DNA of 64,000 nt from Ideonella livida (lineage in GTDB: Bacteria > Pseudomonadota > Gammaproteobacteria > Burkholderiales > Burkholderiaceae_C). Each line of letters opens with the position of its first letter. The first letter of the stretch is position 1. The notes under the pieces were generated by a model, which worked only from the letters and a program-made list of their open reading frames with translations, ran no database searches and was not told the DNA's origin. Shown piece by piece: positions 33,883-49,265 of the stretch. The DNA lies in the NCBI RefSeq assembly GCF_010499455.1, contig NZ_JAAGOH010000026.1, positions 1-64,000 of the forward strand. Direction: 5' to 3'. The translations under genes and the position numbers were made by a program.

Positions 33883-36800
33883 TCAGCGCCGGAACAGGCG
33901 AAGGGTGTTCACGCCGGCCTCGTGCAGGTACTGCACCCGGTCGCAGGCCTGGCGGATGATGTTCAGCCCGAAGCCGCCTTCCGGAAACGCACTGAAGTCG
34001 GTGTGCGGCGATCGGGGTGGCGCCGGGGAGAAGGCCTCGCCCAGCGAGACCAGATCCACTTCCAGGCCGCCATCCCGGGCACGGGTGAACAGCTCGATGG
34101 GGGCGTCGGGCGGACGGTTGACCGCATGGCGGATGACGTTGGTGAAGCCTTCCACGCTGGCCACGGTCAGCAGGCCGGCGCCGGCCTCGTCCAGTCCCGC
34201 GGCCCTGGCGTCGGCCTGCACCGCGCGGCGCAGGCCTTCCAGGGCCCCCAGCACCGGTGCCAGCTCCAGCCGCCGCTCGGCGGGCGCGGACCGCGGGTGC
34301 AGGGCCATCACCAGGGTGAGGTCGTCGTTGACCTGCACGCTGGCGTCCAGCAGTTCTTGCCTCAGGCGGCTGAGGATGGCCGCGGGCGCGGCATGGCGCC
34401 GCGCCAGTGCGGCAAAGGCCTGCGCCACGCGCTCACGGCCCACCCGGGCACCGTCGGCGCGCTGGGCATCCGCCACGCCGTCCGAACACAGGAACAGCGC
34501 GTCGCCGGGTCGCCAGTGCAGGCTGTCCTGGGTGAAGGTGGCCTCGGCCATCACGCCCAGCGGCGGGTGCTGGTTGTGCAGGTGGACCAGGCCCTGGCCA
34601 TGCTGCAGCAACAGCGGCTCCTCATGGCCGCAGCCCACCCAGCTCAGCCGGCCCAGGCGGCTGTCCAGCCGCACATGGCAGACGGTGACAAAGGCGTCCA
34701 GTGCCTGCAGGTGGGGGGTGAGCGCTCCATGCACCGCCGCCAGGATAGCCGCCGGCTCGGGGCGGGCCCCCTGGTAGCGCGAGACCAGCTCGGCCATGGA
34801 GCGGCTGAACTGCAGCTTGGTGGCCGCCCCCATCAGCGCGGCGGCCAGACCCTTGCCCATCACGTCGCCCACCACGATGTCCACGCAGTTGGGCCCCAGC
34901 TCGAAGAATTCGACGAAGTCACCGTCAACGCCCTGCGAGGCCTGGTTGCTCACGCTCAGCCACAGCGGTCGGTCTGCCGCCGGCGGTGGCGTCACCAGCA
35001 GCGATTGCTGGATGCGCGCCCCGATCTGCACCTCGCGCTCGCGTGCCTGGGCCAGCGCCAGCTCGGCCCGCCGCAGGGCGGAGATGTCGGTCTGGATGCT
35101 GATGTACTGGCGCGGCAGCCCGTCATCTCCCGGCACCGGCACGATGGTGCCGGCCACCCAGTAGCGCTCGCCGTCCTTGCGGCGGTTGACCAGTTCGCCA
35201 TGCCAGATGCTGCCCTGGGTGATGGTGCGCCAGAGCTGTCGGTAGACGGTGTCGGGATGCTCGCCGCTCTTGAGCAGGTTGTGCTTGCGGCCGAGGAGCT
35301 CGGTCGGGCTGTAGCCCGAGAGCTCGGCCAGCTTGGCGTTGGCATAGAGGATGCGCCCGAAGGGGTCGGTGATGCTGACGATGGCGTGGGCATCCAGCGC
35401 CAGCTTCTGGCGCTCCAGGTCGGTGGCCAGGGCCTGGGTGCGCTCCAGCAGGGCGGCCCGCTCGGCCTCCTCCTCGCGTCGGGCGGTGATGTCGCGCAGG
35501 GTGGCGGTGAAGAACAGCTGTGACCGGGCGCGCACCGGCACCACGGTGAGCTCCAGCGGAAAGATGCGGCCCCGGGCGTCCAGGCCGTCCATTTCCACGC
35601 GCTGGTTGACCACGCCGCCGGCACGACCACTGAGGTAGTCGCTCAGGCTGGCCATGACCCGGGCACGCGCGCGATGCGGCAACAGGTGGAACACCGGCTG
35701 CCCGATGACCTCGGTGCGCTCGCGGCCGAAGATGAGTTCGGCCGCGGGGTTGAAGTCCACCACCGTGCCGGCGGCATCGAAGGTCAGGATGCCGTCCATC
35801 GACGCCTCGAGGATGGCGCGGCGCCGGGCCTCCAGCAGGCGGGCCCCGGCCCGCATGACCCGCAGGCGGCGCTGGCTGTCCTCGTCGCGCCGCAGGCTGC
35901 GCCAGAGGGCGGCGCCGGTGGGCAGCACCAGCAAGCTCAGCACCAGGCCAGCCAGGACCAGGCTGCGGGTGGTGCCGCGGCTCTCGCGCAACACGTCTTG
36001 CAGCGGGTGCTCTACCAGCACCCCCAGGGACCAGCCCGGCACCGGCCGCCAGGCCGAGAGCTGCTCGGTGCCGTGCAGGCCCTGCCCCAGGGCAGTGCGC
36101 GGCCCCCCGGGGGGGGCCGATGGCAGGGCGGGTTGCAAGGCTGGCAGCTCCGGATGCCCCTGGCCGGGCAACAGGGGCTGTGCACCGGCCACCAGGCTGC
36201 TGTCCTGGCCCAGCACCGCCACCTGCAGTCCGGTGTCGGCTATCAGACTGTCGAGCTCCTGCAGCAGGTGGCGGGGATCCAGCACGGCCACCAGCCAGCC
36301 GCTGGGCACCCCGGTGGGGCTCTGCAACGCCAGCACCAGGCACAGGCCATAGGCCTCATGCTGCCGGGGGCTGGGAGGTTCCAGGTCGGGCAGCAGCAGG
36401 CCGGCCCTCAAGGGACCCAGGCGCGGTGCCGCCGACGGCGGGGGCAGCGGGCCGCAGGCAGCCAGCGGCGCCAGGCGGCCCACGGTCCTGGCGTCGGTGC
36501 TGGTGCGCACCTGCTGCCGGGCATCGAGCAGGCTCAGGCTGCGCATCAGGGGTTCACGCTGGGCGATGTCGGCCAGCAGCGGCTGTAGGCGTACACCACT
36601 CTCGTTGGACAGGTCGGCCAGACCTTCGGCCAGGGTGCGCATCAGACCGGCGGCGGCGGCAAGCTGGCGGTCCACCTGACTGGCCAGCACCTGGGCATGC
36701 AGATCGGCCCGGGACAGCGCGCTCTCTTCCACCTTGCGCTGGCCAAACAGGATCATGGCCGCTACCGCCAGCCACACCAGGATGAGCAGCAGGCCGGTGA

Positions 36801-36966
36801 GCCACACCACATGCCGGGCCTGCAGGCGCGAGGGGGTGTCCGGCAATTCCCCGGCTTCTGGTGGCAGGCCGTCGGGCCCGGTGGAGGGCGCGCTGGGGCG
36901 GGCCAGCGGCTCGGACTCGGGACCGTTTTGTGGGTGGGCTGGCACCTCGTCGTCGGGATCCGGCAT
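33883..36966 (-). CDS. Membrane sensor, two PAS domains, SpoIIE phosphatase and RsbW-like kinase in one chain
   Basis: A 1027-aa protein. A Pro/Glu-rich cytoplasmic N-terminus of about 50 residues precedes TM1 (about 52-75), a large periplasmic sensor, TM2 (about 335-358), PAS1 (about 385-490), PAS2 (about 525-640), a PP2C-type SpoIIE phosphatase domain (about 655-870, with GDFVEFFEL, VVGDVMGKGLAAALMG, FLCSDGVADA and NDDLTLV) and a C-terminal GHKL ATPase of the anti-sigma kinase type (about 890-1027, EGFTNVIRHAVNRPP, GGFGLNIIRQACD). It joins opposing phosphatase and kinase activities of a partner-switching pathway in one polypeptide. No STAS anti-antagonist or sigma gene is nearby, so its partner must be elsewhere. 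Confidence 0.92.
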   Translation of the reverse strand: MPDPDDEVPAHPQNGPESEPLARPSAPSTGPDGLPPEAGELPDTPSRLQARHVVWLTGLLLILVWLAVAAMILFGQRKVEESALSRADLHAQVLASQVDRQLAAAAGLMRTLAEGLADLSNESGVRLQPLLADIAQREPLMRSLSLLDARQQVRTSTDARTVGRLAPLAACGPLPPPSAAPRLGPLRAGLLLPDLEPPSPRQHEAYGLCLVLALQSPTGVPSGWLVAVLDPRHLLQELDSLIADTGLQVAVLGQDSSLVAGAQPLLPGQGHPELPALQPALPSAPPGGPRTALGQGLHGTEQLSAWRPVPGWSLGVLVEHPLQDVLRESRGTTRSLVLAGLVLSLLVLPTGAALWRSLRRDEDSQRRLRVMRAGARLLEARRRAILEASMDGILTFDAAGTVVDFNPAAELIFGRERTEVIGQPVFHLLPHRARARVMASLSDYLSGRAGGVVNQRVEMDGLDARGRIFPLELTVVPVRARSQLFFTATLRDITARREEEAERAALLERTQALATDLERQKLALDAHAIVSITDPFGRILYANAKLAELSGYSPTELLGRKHNLLKSGEHPDTVYRQLWRTITQGSIWHGELVNRRKDGERYWVAGTIVPVPGDDGLPRQYISIQTDISALRRAELALAQAREREVQIGARIQQSLLVTPPPAADRPLWLSVSNQASQGVDGDFVEFFELGPNCVDIVVGDVMGKGLAAALMGAATKLQFSRSMAELVSRYQGARPEPAAILAAVHGALTPHLQALDAFVTVCHVRLDSRLGRLSWVGCGHEEPLLLQHGQGLVHLHNQHPPLGVMAEATFTQDSLHWRPGDALFLCSDGVADAQRADGARVGRERVAQAFAALARRHAAPAAILSRLRQELLDASVQVNDDLTLVMALHPRSAPAERRLELAPVLGALEGLRRAVQADARAAGLDEAGAGLLTVASVEGFTNVIRHAVNRPPDAPIELFTRARDGGLEVDLVSLGEAFSPAPPRSPHTDFSAFPEGGFGLNIIRQACDRVQYLHEAGVNTLRLFRR

Positions 36967-41895: not shown

Positions 41896-43674
41896 ATGAG
41901 CGCCACCTACCTGCACGCCCCGTACAAGGACCGCGAACGCGTCAAGGCACTGGGGGCCCGCTGGGACCCGGTGCGTCGGCAGTGGTATGTGCCGGCCGGG
42001 CGTGACCTGGCCGCCTTCAGCGCCTGGTTGCCCGCCGTGGCTGGCGCGCCTCCGAGGGAGCCGGCGGCGGCTAGCATGGCACTGGTGGGGGCAGAACCGG
42101 CGGCGCCCTGGGACGCCACAGCAGCGCCGGCCCCCTCCGCGGGGCGGGATGTGTCCGCGCCAGAGCGTTCATCCGGTGCGCTCGAGGCCCATCGCGGTCA
42201 ATCCCTCTCGGCCTTGATGGCCGCGGTGGCCGCCAGCGTGGCGCAGTCGTTCCGGCAGGCGGCCTGGACACGGGTGGAGGTGGTCAAGGCGGATGTGCGG
42301 CGCGGACATGTGTACCTGGAGTTGGCCGAACGCGATCCGCAGGGCCAGGTCCTGGCCCAGGCGCGGGGCATGGTTTGGGCCGACACCGCACAGCGCCTGT
42401 TGCCGCGCTTCGAGCAGGCCACCGGCATGGTCATGGGCGCTGGGCTGAAGCTGCTGGTGCGGGCCCGTCCGCAGGTGCACGGCCTCTATGGCCTGAGTCT
42501 GGTCATCGAAGACCTGGATCCCGACTACAGCCTGGGTGATTTGGAAGCCCGCAAGCGCGAGATCCGCCAGCAGCTTCAGCGTGAGGGCTTGTGGGACGCC
42601 CAGCGACGCCTTGCCCCTCCCTGGGACTTCACGAAGGTGCTGGTGGTGGCCCCCGAAGGGGCAGCAGGTCTGGGCGACTTCCGGGCCGAGGCCGACCGAC
42701 TGGCTGCCGCCGGTGTCTGCCACTTCGACTATGTGCACAGCCGCTTCCAGGGCGAAGGCGCCGCGGCGGAGATCGTGGCGGTCCTGGAAGACGCCCTGCG
42801 GCGGCGCACGCAGGACGGTGCGCCGCTTTGGGATGCGATCGCGCTGATCCGGGGCGGCGGTGCCGTCAATGACCTGGCTTGGCTGAACGACCTGGCGCTC
42901 GCACGTTGCCTCTGCCAGCTGCCGGTGCCGGTGTTCACCGGCATCGGCCATGAACGGGACCGCTGCGTGCTCGATGAGGTGGCGCATCTTGCCTTTGACA
43001 CCCCGTCCAAGGTGGTGCTGGGCATGGTCCAACAGATACGGCTGCGTGTCCAGGAGGTCCGCGCTGCGATGCAGGCGGTGGCCCTGCTCGCGCGCCGGCG
43101 GCTGGACGGCGCCCGCCAGGGGTCCCGACAGCAGTGGCAGGGCTTGCAATGGCAGGCGGGGCTGCAACTGGTGCAGGCCCGTCAGCAGGTCCCGGCCCTG
43201 ATGCAGTCGGTCCGCGCAGGCGCTCAGGCCCAGGTGATGCAGGCCCGTGCCACCAGCCGGCAGCGCCGTGACGAGGTGGGCTGGCAGGCCGTGGCGCAGT
43301 GCCGGCAGGCGCGTGAGCGGGTGCCGCAGGCGCTGGCACAGGTGCGGGAGGCCGCGCGTGAGCAGTTGATCCAGGCCCGACAGCACACCCAGGCCCTGTT
43401 GCGCGAGGTGACAGGCCAAGGGCCGGAGCGCACCCTGGCCCGAGGTTTTGCCGTGGTGCGCGACGCCGCCTCTGGTCAGGTGTTGACCCGGGCGGCTGAA
43501 CTGACACCGGATCGGACCGTGCTCCTGCAGTATCAGGACGGGGGCGTGCCTGCGACCATCACCGGGCCGATGGCGGCGCCCTCCCTGGCGGGCGCGTCCA
43601 CGGCGGCACCCTCCACTACATCCAAGCCGCGGCGGGTGCGCCGCCCGGCCACCGGCCCACAGGACACGCCATGA
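41896..43674 (+). CDS. xseA: DUF5710-like domain fused to exonuclease VII large-subunit-like protein
   Basis: The start at 41896 gives 592 aa; standard XseA is about 400-460 aa. Residues 1-50 (YLHAPYKDRERVKALGARWD, then RQWYVPAGRDL) match the DUF5710 domain seen mainly in plasmid DNA-processing and primase-like proteins. A linker of about 55 residues follows. The XseA-like OB-fold is at about 110-215 (VEVVKADVRRGHVYLELAER). The catalytic core at about 230-390 has the family motifs RGGGAVNDLAWLND (from Arg319) and GIGHERD (His352 to Asp355). A Gln/Arg-rich coiled coil (about 395-510) and the family closing motif RTLARGFAVVRDAASGQVL complete the protein. It is translationally coupled to an xseB gene. 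ExoVII cuts single-stranded DNA to oligonucleotides. This looks like an accessory, divergent ExoVII. Confidence 0.85.
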   Translation: MSATYLHAPYKDRERVKALGARWDPVRRQWYVPAGRDLAAFSAWLPAVAGAPPREPAAASMALVGAEPAAPWDATAAPAPSAGRDVSAPERSSGALEAHRGQSLSALMAAVAASVAQSFRQAAWTRVEVVKADVRRGHVYLELAERDPQGQVLAQARGMVWADTAQRLLPRFEQATGMVMGAGLKLLVRARPQVHGLYGLSLVIEDLDPDYSLGDLEARKREIRQQLQREGLWDAQRRLAPPWDFTKVLVVAPEGAAGLGDFRAEADRLAAAGVCHFDYVHSRFQGEGAAAEIVAVLEDALRRRTQDGAPLWDAIALIRGGGAVNDLAWLNDLALARCLCQLPVPVFTGIGHERDRCVLDEVAHLAFDTPSKVVLGMVQQIRLRVQEVRAAMQAVALLARRRLDGARQGSRQQWQGLQWQAGLQLVQARQQVPALMQSVRAGAQAQVMQARATSRQRRDEVGWQAVAQCRQARERVPQALAQVREAAREQLIQARQHTQALLREVTGQGPERTLARGFAVVRDAASGQVLTRAAELTPDRTVLLQYQDGGVPATITGPMAAPSLAGASTAAPSTTSKPRRVRRPATGPQDTP

Positions 43675-43901
43675 ACCCCAAGACCTTCAAGGACGCCTAC
43701 GCCGTGCTGCAGCAGCATGCCGAAACCTTGCGCAGCCAGCGCGAGCCCAACATCGACGACCTGCTGCGCATCGTCACCGAGTCGGTGGCCGCCTACCAAA
43801 CCTGTCAGGCCCGCATCGAGGCGGTGGAGAAGGCGCTGGACAGGGCCTTGGGTGAGGCGGGCCTGGAGACCGGCCACCGCGACGACGGCGAGCCGGGCTG
43901 A
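43671..43901 (+). CDS. xseB: Exonuclease VII small-subunit-like protein
   Basis: A 76-aa protein whose ATG overlaps the stop of the large-subunit gene (ATGA), implying translational coupling. The pattern FKDAYAVLQQHAETLRSQRE, then IDDLLRIVTESVAAYQTCQ and RIEAVEKALDRAL matches XseB (FEEALAELEEIV ... LEEALALYEEGVALARACRARL) in length and hydrophobic spacing, but is divergent. XseB subunits coat the long coiled coil of XseA. Divergence together with the fused large subunit suggests a co-evolved pair distinct from the housekeeping enzyme. Confidence 0.82.
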   Translation: MNPKTFKDAYAVLQQHAETLRSQREPNIDDLLRIVTESVAAYQTCQARIEAVEKALDRALGEAGLETGHRDDGEPG

Positions 43902-46676: not shown

Positions 46677-47306
46677 ATGAACACCTCCTGTGATGCTGAT
46701 GACCGCAAGCTGCCGGCGGCGGGGCCGACCCTGAGCTATGTGCTGCAGGACTGGGGGCCGCCCGGTGCCCGCCCGCTTGAGGGGGTGCTGCACCCGGGCC
46801 TGCAACTGGTGTTGGGGGGCGAGGGCCGTGGCAAGACCCGGCTGCTGCGTCTGCTGGCAGGTGCCGATCCGCTGCCGGCGGCTTGCACGCTGCACCCGGC
46901 GCCCTGGCCTGCCTTCCTCTCTGACCTGGAGGAGGAAGGGCTGCGTGCGGTGGTGGCCGCCGAATGGCTGGGCCGGCATGCGGCGCAGCCGGGCTGGCGC
47001 GCCAAGGTGGCCAGCGCCCTGCTGGAGGCGCTGGGTCTGCAGGACCATCTGCTCAAGCAGGTCCACATGCTGTCGACCGGCACCCGGCGTAAGCTGGGTT
47101 TGGTGGCTGCCGCTGCGGGCACGGCCCGGCTGGTGTTGCTGGACCAGCCCCACGCCGCGCTGGACGCGCGTTCCTGCCGGGTGCTTGACGAGCTGCTGGC
47201 CGAGGCGGCCCAGGAATCCCACCGTTGCTGGGTCGTGGCGGACTACAGCTGCCCTGAACGGCTGCAGGGCCTGCCCGGCGTGCGGGTGCTGGACTTGGGG
47301 GATTGA
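46677..47306 (+). CDS. Small ABC-type ATPase, degenerate Walker B
   Basis: A 209-aa protein with Walker A GGEGRGKT (47-54), signature-like LSTGT (132-136) followed by RRKLGLVAAAA, and Walker B RLVLLDQPHAALD. The catalytic Glu after Asp156 is Gln157, and the expected H-loop His is missing (VVADYSCPE). ATP hydrolysis is therefore probably weak, while binding may persist. No permease gene is adjacent. The gene ends nine bases before a sensor kinase gene, so the two may be cotranscribed. A regulatory or structural role is possible; transport is not supported by context. Confidence 0.75.
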   Translation: MNTSCDADDRKLPAAGPTLSYVLQDWGPPGARPLEGVLHPGLQLVLGGEGRGKTRLLRLLAGADPLPAACTLHPAPWPAFLSDLEEEGLRAVVAAEWLGRHAAQPGWRAKVASALLEALGLQDHLLKQVHMLSTGTRRKLGLVAAAAGTARLVLLDQPHAALDARSCRVLDELLAEAAQESHRCWVVADYSCPERLQGLPGVRVLDLGD

Positions 47307-47315
47307 GCCCGGCGC

Positions 47316-49265
47316 GTGTCCGCCGCCGTCGCCCTGGGGCCTGCCCGGCTGGCAGCCAAGCTGGCCTCAGGCACACTTGCGCCCGTGCGAGCTGTACCTG
47401 CCCTGATTTCCTTGAGGCGCCCCACCTGGTCTGGCCTGTGGCTGGCCCTGCTGGTGCTGGTGCCTGCCCTGGTGGGTGGCCTGTTGGGCTACCGCTGGAG
47501 CGAACGCGCTGGCCTGTCCCAGCTGGCCTCCGTCACCGGGGAGCGTCTGGCCCTCTACGCCGCCACATTGGAGTCGGAGCTGGCCCGTTTTGCCTATCTG
47601 CCCAGTCTGGTGGCGGCCGAGCCGGACATCGAAGCCCTGCTGTTGCAACCGGCTGATCTGCGGCGCCGTGAGGAGGCCTCGCGCAAGCTGGTGCGCATCG
47701 CCGCGCGGGCCGGCGCCAGTGGGATCCTGATCTTGGCCGACGACGCCGGCGCCGAGCCCGAAGTGCTGGCCTCCAGCCTGCGGGGCGGGGCGGCGGGGCA
47801 GGATGCACTGCCGCCGCGTGCCTTGCAAGCCCTGCTTCGCGACGGACCCCGCGACTATTTCGCGGCCAACGACGCTGACGGCACCACCGACTATTACTTT
47901 GTGCAGGTGGTGCAGCGCCAAGGCCGGCGTCTGGGGCAGGTGGTGGTACGGGTCAACCTGGCGCCGCTGGAGGCCACCTGGATTGACCTGGGCCTGCGCA
48001 CCCAGAGCGAGCGCCTGCTGGTGATCGACGAGAACGAGGTGGTCGTGCTGTCGTCCGTGCCGGCCTGGAAGTACAAGACCACCGGTGCCCAGGCCGTGCG
48101 CGAGGACACCGGCCGCTATGCGGCGGCCTCGCTGGCACCGCTGGATTGGCAGGAGGTCCAGGAGCTGGAGCCTGGCGTGCGCCTGTTGGCCCTGGCCGCC
48201 CCCGATGGCCGCAGCATCCAGCGGCAGGTGGCGCAGGAGCGCACCATCGTGCCGCTGGGGGCGCGGCTGCTGGCGCTGTCGGATCCCTCCGAGGTGCAGC
48301 GCCTGGCCCGTCATGCGGCTTGGGGCGGTGCGGCCGGCGGTGCGCTGCTGGGGCTGCTGGCCCTGTACGGCCTGCACCGGCGGCGCAGCATGCGCCAGTT
48401 GCTGGCGGCCCGCAACGCGCTGCAGCAGGCCCATGACCAGCTGGAGGCCCAGGTCGACGAGCGCACCTGGCAGTTGCGCAGCGCCAACGAAGAGCTGACC
48501 CGCCAGATCGCCCAGCGCGAGGAGATGGAAGGCGAGCTGATCCAGGCGGGCAAGCTGGCGGTGCTGGGCCAGATGTCGGCGGGCATCTCGCACGAGATCA
48601 ACCAGCCCCTGACCGCCCTGCGCGCCCTCTCGGGCAACGCCCTGCAATTCCTGGAGGCCCAGCGCCTGCGCGAGGTGGCCGGCAACCTGCGCATGATCGA
48701 CGAGATGGCCGAGCGCATGGGCCGCATCGTGGGGCAGCTCAAGTCCTTTGCCCGCAAGGAGGGCCTGAGCCACCAGCCGGTGGTGCTGTCCCAGGCGGTG
48801 CGCAACGTGGTGCTGATGCTGGGACACCGGCTGCGCGAGCAGCCGGTGGACCTCCTGGTCGAGGTGCCGGACGACCTACAGGTGCTGGGCGACCTGCACC
48901 GGCTGGAGCAGGTGCTGCTCAACTTGATGGGCAACGCGCTGGACGCTCTGCGTGGCGTGGCGCTTCGGCGGCTGGAGGTCCATGCCGAACTCAGCGGCCA
49001 GCGGGTGCTGGTACAGGTGCGTGACAGCGGTCCCGGCTTGAGCGAGCTGCAGTGGGCCCGGCTGTTCGAGCCGTTCTTCACCACCAAGGGAGCTGGCGAA
49101 GGCCTGGGACTGGGCCTGGTGATCTCCTCCAAGATCGTGGCGGAGTTCGGCGGCAGCCTGCGGGCCTTGCGGCCGGTGCCGGGGCAGGGCATGGTGTTCG
49201 AGTTCGACCTGCCCTGGGCGCAAGGTTCGGTGCGGCCGTCGCTGCCGGGCGAGCTGCTGGGTTGA
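47316..49265 (+). CDS. DctB-like sensor histidine kinase
   Basis: A 649-aa kinase with a GTG start. TM1 (about 41-62) and TM2 (about 330-352) enclose a double-PAS/Cache-type periplasmic domain (YYFVQVVQRQGRRLGQVVVR, LLVIDENEVVVLSS). A coiled linker leads to the dimerisation helix with His426 in GISHEINQPLTALRAL, an N box (NLMGNALDAL) and G boxes (DSGPGL, GLGLGLVISSKI). These match DctB, the C4-dicarboxylate sensor. DctB normally sits next to dctD, but no NtrC-type regulator gene is adjacent here; a binding protein gene follows in convergent orientation. Ligand identity is inferred only at family level. Confidence 0.9.
   Translation: MSAAVALGPARLAAKLASGTLAPVRAVPALISLRRPTWSGLWLALLVLVPALVGGLLGYRWSERAGLSQLASVTGERLALYAATLESELARFAYLPSLVAAEPDIEALLLQPADLRRREEASRKLVRIAARAGASGILILADDAGAEPEVLASSLRGGAAGQDALPPRALQALLRDGPRDYFAANDADGTTDYYFVQVVQRQGRRLGQVVVRVNLAPLEATWIDLGLRTQSERLLVIDENEVVVLSSVPAWKYKTTGAQAVREDTGRYAAASLAPLDWQEVQELEPGVRLLALAAPDGRSIQRQVAQERTIVPLGARLLALSDPSEVQRLARHAAWGGAAGGALLGLLALYGLHRRRSMRQLLAARNALQQAHDQLEAQVDERTWQLRSANEELTRQIAQREEMEGELIQAGKLAVLGQMSAGISHEINQPLTALRALSGNALQFLEAQRLREVAGNLRMIDEMAERMGRIVGQLKSFARKEGLSHQPVVLSQAVRNVVLMLGHRLREQPVDLLVEVPDDLQVLGDLHRLEQVLLNLMGNALDALRGVALRRLEVHAELSGQRVLVQVRDSGPGLSELQWARLFEPFFTTKGAGEGLGLGLVISSKIVAEFGGSLRALRPVPGQGMVFEFDLPWAQGSVRPSLPGELLG

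Follow-up and report, generated by a model that had tools for sequence, protein, structure and literature searches.

Is a two-gene exonuclease VII (ExoVII) whose large subunit begins with a DUF5710 domain an accessory nuclease of Ideonella livida, or has it become the ExoVII of this bacterium? The question is raised by a locus in the 64,000-nucleotide stretch of DNA analysed here (the window; contig NZ_JAAGOH010000026.1 of assembly GCF_010499455.1, positions 1 to 64,000), for which a preliminary description, made from the letters alone, had proposed a specialised nuclease working beside the housekeeping enzyme. The pair consists of a variant xseA, encoding the large subunit (41896..43674, plus strand, 592 aa), and a variant xseB, encoding the small subunit (43671..43901, plus strand, 76 aa), the end of the first gene and the start of the second sharing the four bases ATGA; the coordinates, the DUF5710 fusion and this overlap had been described correctly.

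Searches with Pfam profiles placed DUF5710 (PF18974) at XseA residues 4-46 (41905..42033, plus strand; 61.4 bits, E 6.7e-17, versus a cut-off of 26.5) and Exonuc_VII_L (PF02601), which spans the catalytic region and the coiled coil, at residues 233-553 (42592..43554, plus strand; 186.5 bits versus a cut-off of 35.9). Between them lie a linker modelled as disordered (residues 49-99; 42040..42192, plus strand) and a nucleic-acid-binding OB-fold (residues 103-207; 42202..42516, plus strand; tRNA_anti_2, 39.4 bits). The protein also passed the NCBIfam model TIGR00237 for xseA (225 bits, cut-off 180). DUF5710 as a chance match was ruled out, the score being above the cut-off and the domain being present in 29/34 and 20/35 sampled XseA relatives (alignments A1 and A2, which overlap). 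Since it is patchy in these samples, the domain may have been gained or lost within the clade, or missed through wrong starts in some rows. The window XseB passed NF045605 (xseB_Acin_var) alone, with 104.3 bits versus a cut-off of 40, and stayed under the cut-offs of Exonuc_VII_S PF02609 (18.3 versus 24) and TIGR01280 (24.8 versus 35), so that the subunits are indeed divergent, as had been suspected.

The two core motifs reported at the outset were found again, RGGG at XseA residues 319-322 and GHERD, a form of GHExD, at residues 351-355. Residues R319-G322, G351, H352 and D355 are invariant across all 34 variant proteins of A1, as is D261. In the alignment, D261, R319, H352 and D355 correspond to D155, R205, position 238 and D241 of E. 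coli XseA, position 238 being alanine in the solved structure 8TXR, an H238A mutant. We take D155, R205, H238 and D241 to be the catalytic residues of the E. coli protein; by this alignment, the predicted catalytic residues are retained in the window XseA.

A structure model of XseA was built from 35 sequences (mean pLDDT 82.0, pTM 0.52). The small N-terminal domain was modelled confidently, with pLDDT 79-97 per ten-residue block over residues 1-50, and pLDDT fell under 50 at residues 49-99 and 559-592. In the model, DUF5710 thus forms a domain of its own, joined to the rest by a flexible leash about 50 residues long, and the extra linker of the preliminary description has its counterpart here, as has the long coiled coil in a helix of residues 370-505 (43003..43410, plus strand). 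The best PDB matches of the model in Foldseek were three chains of E. coli ExoVII 8txr (E 4.9e-24 to 1.0e-17). For the top match, 8txr_A (E 4.9e-24), the TM-scores were low (0.26/0.35) and the rmsd was 32, values that we ascribe to the long flexible helix. Modelled by itself, DUF5710 (52 residues, pLDDT 80.7, pTM 0.56) retrieved no significant match in a PDB fold search (best E 1.9), the query being short.

The window enzyme is therefore like canonical ExoVII in its top fold match, in having a small-subunit partner, and in the OB-fold, core, long helix and C-terminal part, which align to 8txr_A residues 9-444. It is unlike canonical ExoVII in the N-terminal DUF5710 with its disordered linker, in reading FDTPSK where E. 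coli has the RAPTPS motif, in a small subunit that falls below the PF02609 and TIGR01280 cut-offs, and in the adjacency of xseA and xseB, whereas the canonical genes lie at two loci.

An accessory nuclease would be expected beside a second, standard xseA/xseB pair. We looked for such a pair and found none: the window xseA is the single PF02601 gene found in the whole I. livida assembly (a draft of 104 contigs, 99% complete), and a PF02609 search of the genome retrieved no gene, so that canonical xseB was not found either. Canonical XseA is present in 15/15 congeners (best piece 254-316 bits), none of which gave a second, variant-like match; the window XseA as query reached only 28-52 bits against them. 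Canonical xseB is likewise present in all 15. As evidence against its own proposal the preliminary description had named a pair that is alone in its genome, together with relatives relying on the same fusion as their only ExoVII. The first is what we observe in I. livida; the second does not hold for its congeners, all of which are canonical.

The places where the canonical genes would be expected can be recognised in I. livida (gene names at both sites were assigned by eye). In one congener (locus L028), the neighbours of xseA are an exbB-like gene on one side and sodB on the other; the flanks of this site are 1500-1764 bp apart in 5/5 congeners examined versus 217-246 bp in I. livida. In 4/4 congeners examined, canonical xseB is flanked by ispA and by a gene carrying a Rieske-type motif; the I. 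livida flanks are intact at this locus, which is the one that holds dxs, and xseB is missing between them. Both ancestral sites are inside large I. livida contigs (236 and 153 kb) with their flanks intact, which rules out loss of the canonical genes in assembly. Searching the two intergenic stretches for remnants of xseA and xseB gave chance-level matches only (best E 0.02), while two positive controls, which covered xseB alone, gave 3e-50 and 9e-33; nothing above chance thus pointed to pseudogene remnants at the old sites. Nor is the window pair the housekeeping orthologue by position beside sodB or ispA and by membership of the canonical clade: it lies at another locus and falls into another clade. 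I. livida thus seems to have lost both ancestral ExoVII genes from two separate sites.

The neighbours of the pair in the window are ordinary: a penicillin acylase family protein, phosphatidylserine decarboxylase, IF-1, Bax1-I, TerC and LysR, as well as an outer-membrane protein whose match is below its cut-off. The right flank, bax1-terC-lysR, is syntenic in two of four congener regions, which were chosen around bax1, and the DNA match to the congener flank stops at the bax1 stop codon. Comparison with these four regions revealed neither the left-flank genes nor boundaries of an inserted element. The window contains no tRNA, and a scan of ten neighbouring proteins revealed no integrase. GC3 of the variant (0.83, versus 0.85-0.91 in six neighbours) is slightly low and not decisive. 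In a comparison of 32 loci, which included loci sharing a genome or coming from near-identical ones and loci truncated by contig ends, xseB was the sole widely shared family (27 loci) besides xseA and its other frames; minor families were shared by three to six loci each, among them a transporter (three loci) and a periplasmic-binding-like protein (six loci), both named by eye. PADLOC gave no match for the xseA-xseB pair. With this result, ordinary neighbours and no conserved neighbour other than xseB, a defence island has no support, and the suggested role in defence was not borne out.

Elsewhere in the window, an ABC-type ATPase gene (46677-47306, plus strand) gave weak PADLOC matches to mad3 (27 bits) and, weaker still, AriA (14 bits); it is followed by a gene read by eye as a sensor kinase (47316-49265). 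On the minus strand, 33883-36966 encodes a 1027-aa PAS-PAS-SpoIIE phosphatase-HATPase protein.

We next consider how the variant is distributed. In the family sample, NF045605 matched 27/399 genomes, 23 of them over the cut-off. A PF02601 search of these 23 carriers showed the variant to be the sole XseA in 13 (G000, G457, G463, G474, G570, G596, G647, G669, G714, G717, G731, G772 and G788) and both forms to be present in nine (G031, G433, G612, G652, G715, G762, G776, G786 and G787); G672 has XseA in the canonical form only, and its variant xseB match is broken across two frames. One genus is mixed, with both forms in G652 and the variant only in G717 (95% complete), a state that may reflect an assembly gap. 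In G474, the variant xseA and xseB matches lie at two contig ends (L261 and L262), the locus probably having been split by assembly, and G715 (8.8 Mb, 8% contamination) has, besides canonical XseA, variant XseA matches spread over four further contigs, on one of which the match is split in two.

In the genomes of at least 90% completeness, canonical XseA was absent in 12/22 carriers (G772 dropped) versus 0/30 non-carriers (30 of 34 from the family, G002, G011, G023 and G024 dropped), with a one-sided Fisher p of 3e-6 that ignores shared ancestry. For G034, a partial match of 59 bits was taken as the canonical form; the dropped G023 (65% complete) had no PF02601 match. Counted by genus, with the mixed genus entered as both, canonical XseA was absent in 5/15 carriers versus 0/18 (p 0.013). 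In two genera where the variant is the sole XseA, dN/dS was 0.23-0.31 (10 pairs) and 0.20-0.45 (6 pairs), values that indicate purifying selection on the variant in both.

In the wider class sample, NF045605 matched 16/369 genomes, 15 of them, including I. livida, over the cut-off. These 16 and two further genomes (G031 and G043) were searched for XseA: 15/18 had one XseA with a variant-like score, both forms were present in G031, G258 combined a gene of canonical score with variant-like pieces, and G175 gave two pieces, both on the same contig. Genomes from several other families of the class yielded no XseA other than the variant. In a sample of relatives, a PF02601 gene was present in 58/60 genomes and 43/45 genera, and the sole full-length match was variant-like in score in G000 and G043 alone. 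NF045605 also exceeded its cut-off in one of 14 control genomes, that of Deinobacterium chartae.

A tree of 90 chosen XseA proteins (the window protein, 33 further proteins of A1, 24 canonical and 32 named ones) was built by a quick method with SH-aLRT support and midpoint rooting only; 27/87 inner branches are open, and the composition of 41 rows deviates. The 24 canonical Burkholderiales rows split from all others at 100%. The 59 variant rows, which include XseA of Psychrobacter, Moraxella and plasmids, cluster at 98%, and within them the window protein belongs to a 29-row clade (100%) whose named rows are mostly Comamonadaceae and which includes two plasmid copies. At 95% it groups with proteins of the both-form genomes G715 and G762 and of Caenimonas koreensis. 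The closest identity to the window XseA within the tree is just 55%, so no recent donor is known. Seven of the 35 A2 proteins are from Bacteroidota and fall outside the variant clade. One record titled Chitinophaga pinensis (L168, CALPRQ020000043.1) is probably a mislabelled MAG.

The connection with mobile elements anticipated in the preliminary description was substantiated by plasmid records, 163 of which matched the window XseA. Five cover at least 80% of the protein, all of them Variovorax and Polaromonas plasmids (43-51% identity), and xseB adjoins xseA in the three Variovorax/Polaromonas plasmid stretches shown. Many Acinetobacter and Pseudomonas plasmid records align from residue 124 on (33-37% identity); one such copy, from Pseudomonas, is in the tree, on a long branch. 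On plasmid 3 of Variovorax sp. RA8 (L249, 11986-13751), the variant xseA is annotated as two overlapping CDS and is therefore probably frameshifted in that record. Ten phage records matched the window XseA, none over 80% of the protein. Chromosomal relatives named among the best 80 of 578 confirmed stretches come from Polaromonas, Curvibacter, Hydrogenophaga, Xylophilus, Psychrobacter, Moraxella and Thiomicrorhabdus. The group of xseB_Acin_var and the XseA beside it is like the window pair in that the window XseB scores above the NF045605 cut-off and that XseA of Psychrobacter, Moraxella and plasmids share the 59-row clade of the window XseA. The difference lies at the N-terminus: DUF5710 is present in only part of the sampled XseA, and the Psychrobacter and Moraxella homologues align only from window residue 38-104 on.

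Very probably, then, a self-contained xseA-xseB unit that moves horizontally took the place of the split housekeeping ExoVII of I. livida and would now be the working enzyme. A DUF5710-XseA with its own XseB would have entered the genome as the unit of a mobile lineage and taken over from the ancestral enzyme, after which xseA at the exbB-like/sodB site and xseB at the ispA/Rieske-motif site would have been lost; in an alternative order, the canonical genes may have been lost before the variant was gained. According to PMC11077951, XseA needs XseB for DNA binding, over-expression of XseA is toxic in E. coli, and XseA in excess over XseB lowers activity; a linked pair would therefore move as a balanced unit. 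Displacement probably happened more than once in the family, because the congeners of I. livida keep the canonical genes, while other whole genera hold the variant alone.

In the acquired enzyme, XseB would coat the XseA coiled coil, the OB-fold would take up single-stranded DNA, and the putative D261/R319/H352/D355 site would cut it from its ends; the roles are most likely those of ExoVII, DNA repair and the removal of protein-blocked DNA ends. DUF5710 is also found in Rep_3 plasmid replication proteins (PMC11233732), which by analogy makes a DNA- or partner-binding role plausible. These Rep_3-DUF5710 proteins of Acinetobacter are like the window XseA in joining DUF5710 to a plasmid DNA-processing protein, and unlike it in being replication initiators rather than nucleases. 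On its leash of some 50 residues, DUF5710 most likely binds DNA or a DNA-processing partner, perhaps tethering the nuclease. Among the matches listed from the open-licence literature, DUF5710 appeared in the context of Rep proteins alone, and no title or abstract described a DUF5710-XseA fusion or a displacement of ExoVII, which is no proof of absence. In the passages considered, PMC9425974 names XseB only for its variable tail, and the xenologous displacement treated there concerns other genes.

A more far-reaching reading, which we hold to be rather unlikely, is that of a portable, plasmid-adapted ExoVII that is recruited to DNA-processing machinery by its DUF5710 and that repeatedly invades chromosomes and ousts the split enzyme, perhaps by mutual poisoning of foreign and native subunits; both old genes would then have to go together.

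It is quite improbable that the pair is a specialised accessory or defence nuclease working beside a housekeeping ExoVII. Such a role would fit the DUF5710 fusion, the plasmid copies (in one of which ssb adjoins the pair, while another is separated by about 3.5 kb from a gene for a DNA methyltransferase) and the occurrence of both forms in 9/23 family carriers, but I. livida has no canonical ExoVII that we could find, other lineages too have yielded the variant as their sole XseA, and neither PADLOC nor the 32 loci, with xseB their only widely conserved neighbour, link the pair to defence.

We likewise see only a slim chance that the pair is kept by its element, in an addiction-like, selfish displacement through incompatible subunits rather than as an equal or better enzyme. 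The linked travel of xseA and xseB (the xseB cluster recurring in 27/32 loci) and the reported effects of surplus XseA would accord with it; against it speak the lack of a visible element around the window copy, the purifying selection indicated in two sole-variant genera, and the nine carriers that retain both forms.

That the variant is the ancestral enzyme of the genus or family, kept in I. livida and replaced in its congeners, is hardly credible. In its favour, several other families of the class have genomes in which no XseA but the variant was found; against it, all 15 congeners are canonical, with the genes at shared sites in those examined, only G000 and G043 have a variant-like sole match in a relatives sample where 58/60 genomes carry PF02601, and the variant small subunit is patchy in the family (23/399 genomes).

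By the displacement reading, a conserved repair nuclease encoded by two distant genes seems to have given way to a mobile version whose genes are linked, neither of the old halves having been kept, and the main interest of the pair is as an example of a whole enzyme displaced at two loci. DUF5710 gains a tractable enzyme context. Since a single family contains carriers of both forms, carriers of one form and a carrier of a broken variant, it allows direct tests of whether the subunits are compatible and of whether gain or loss came first.
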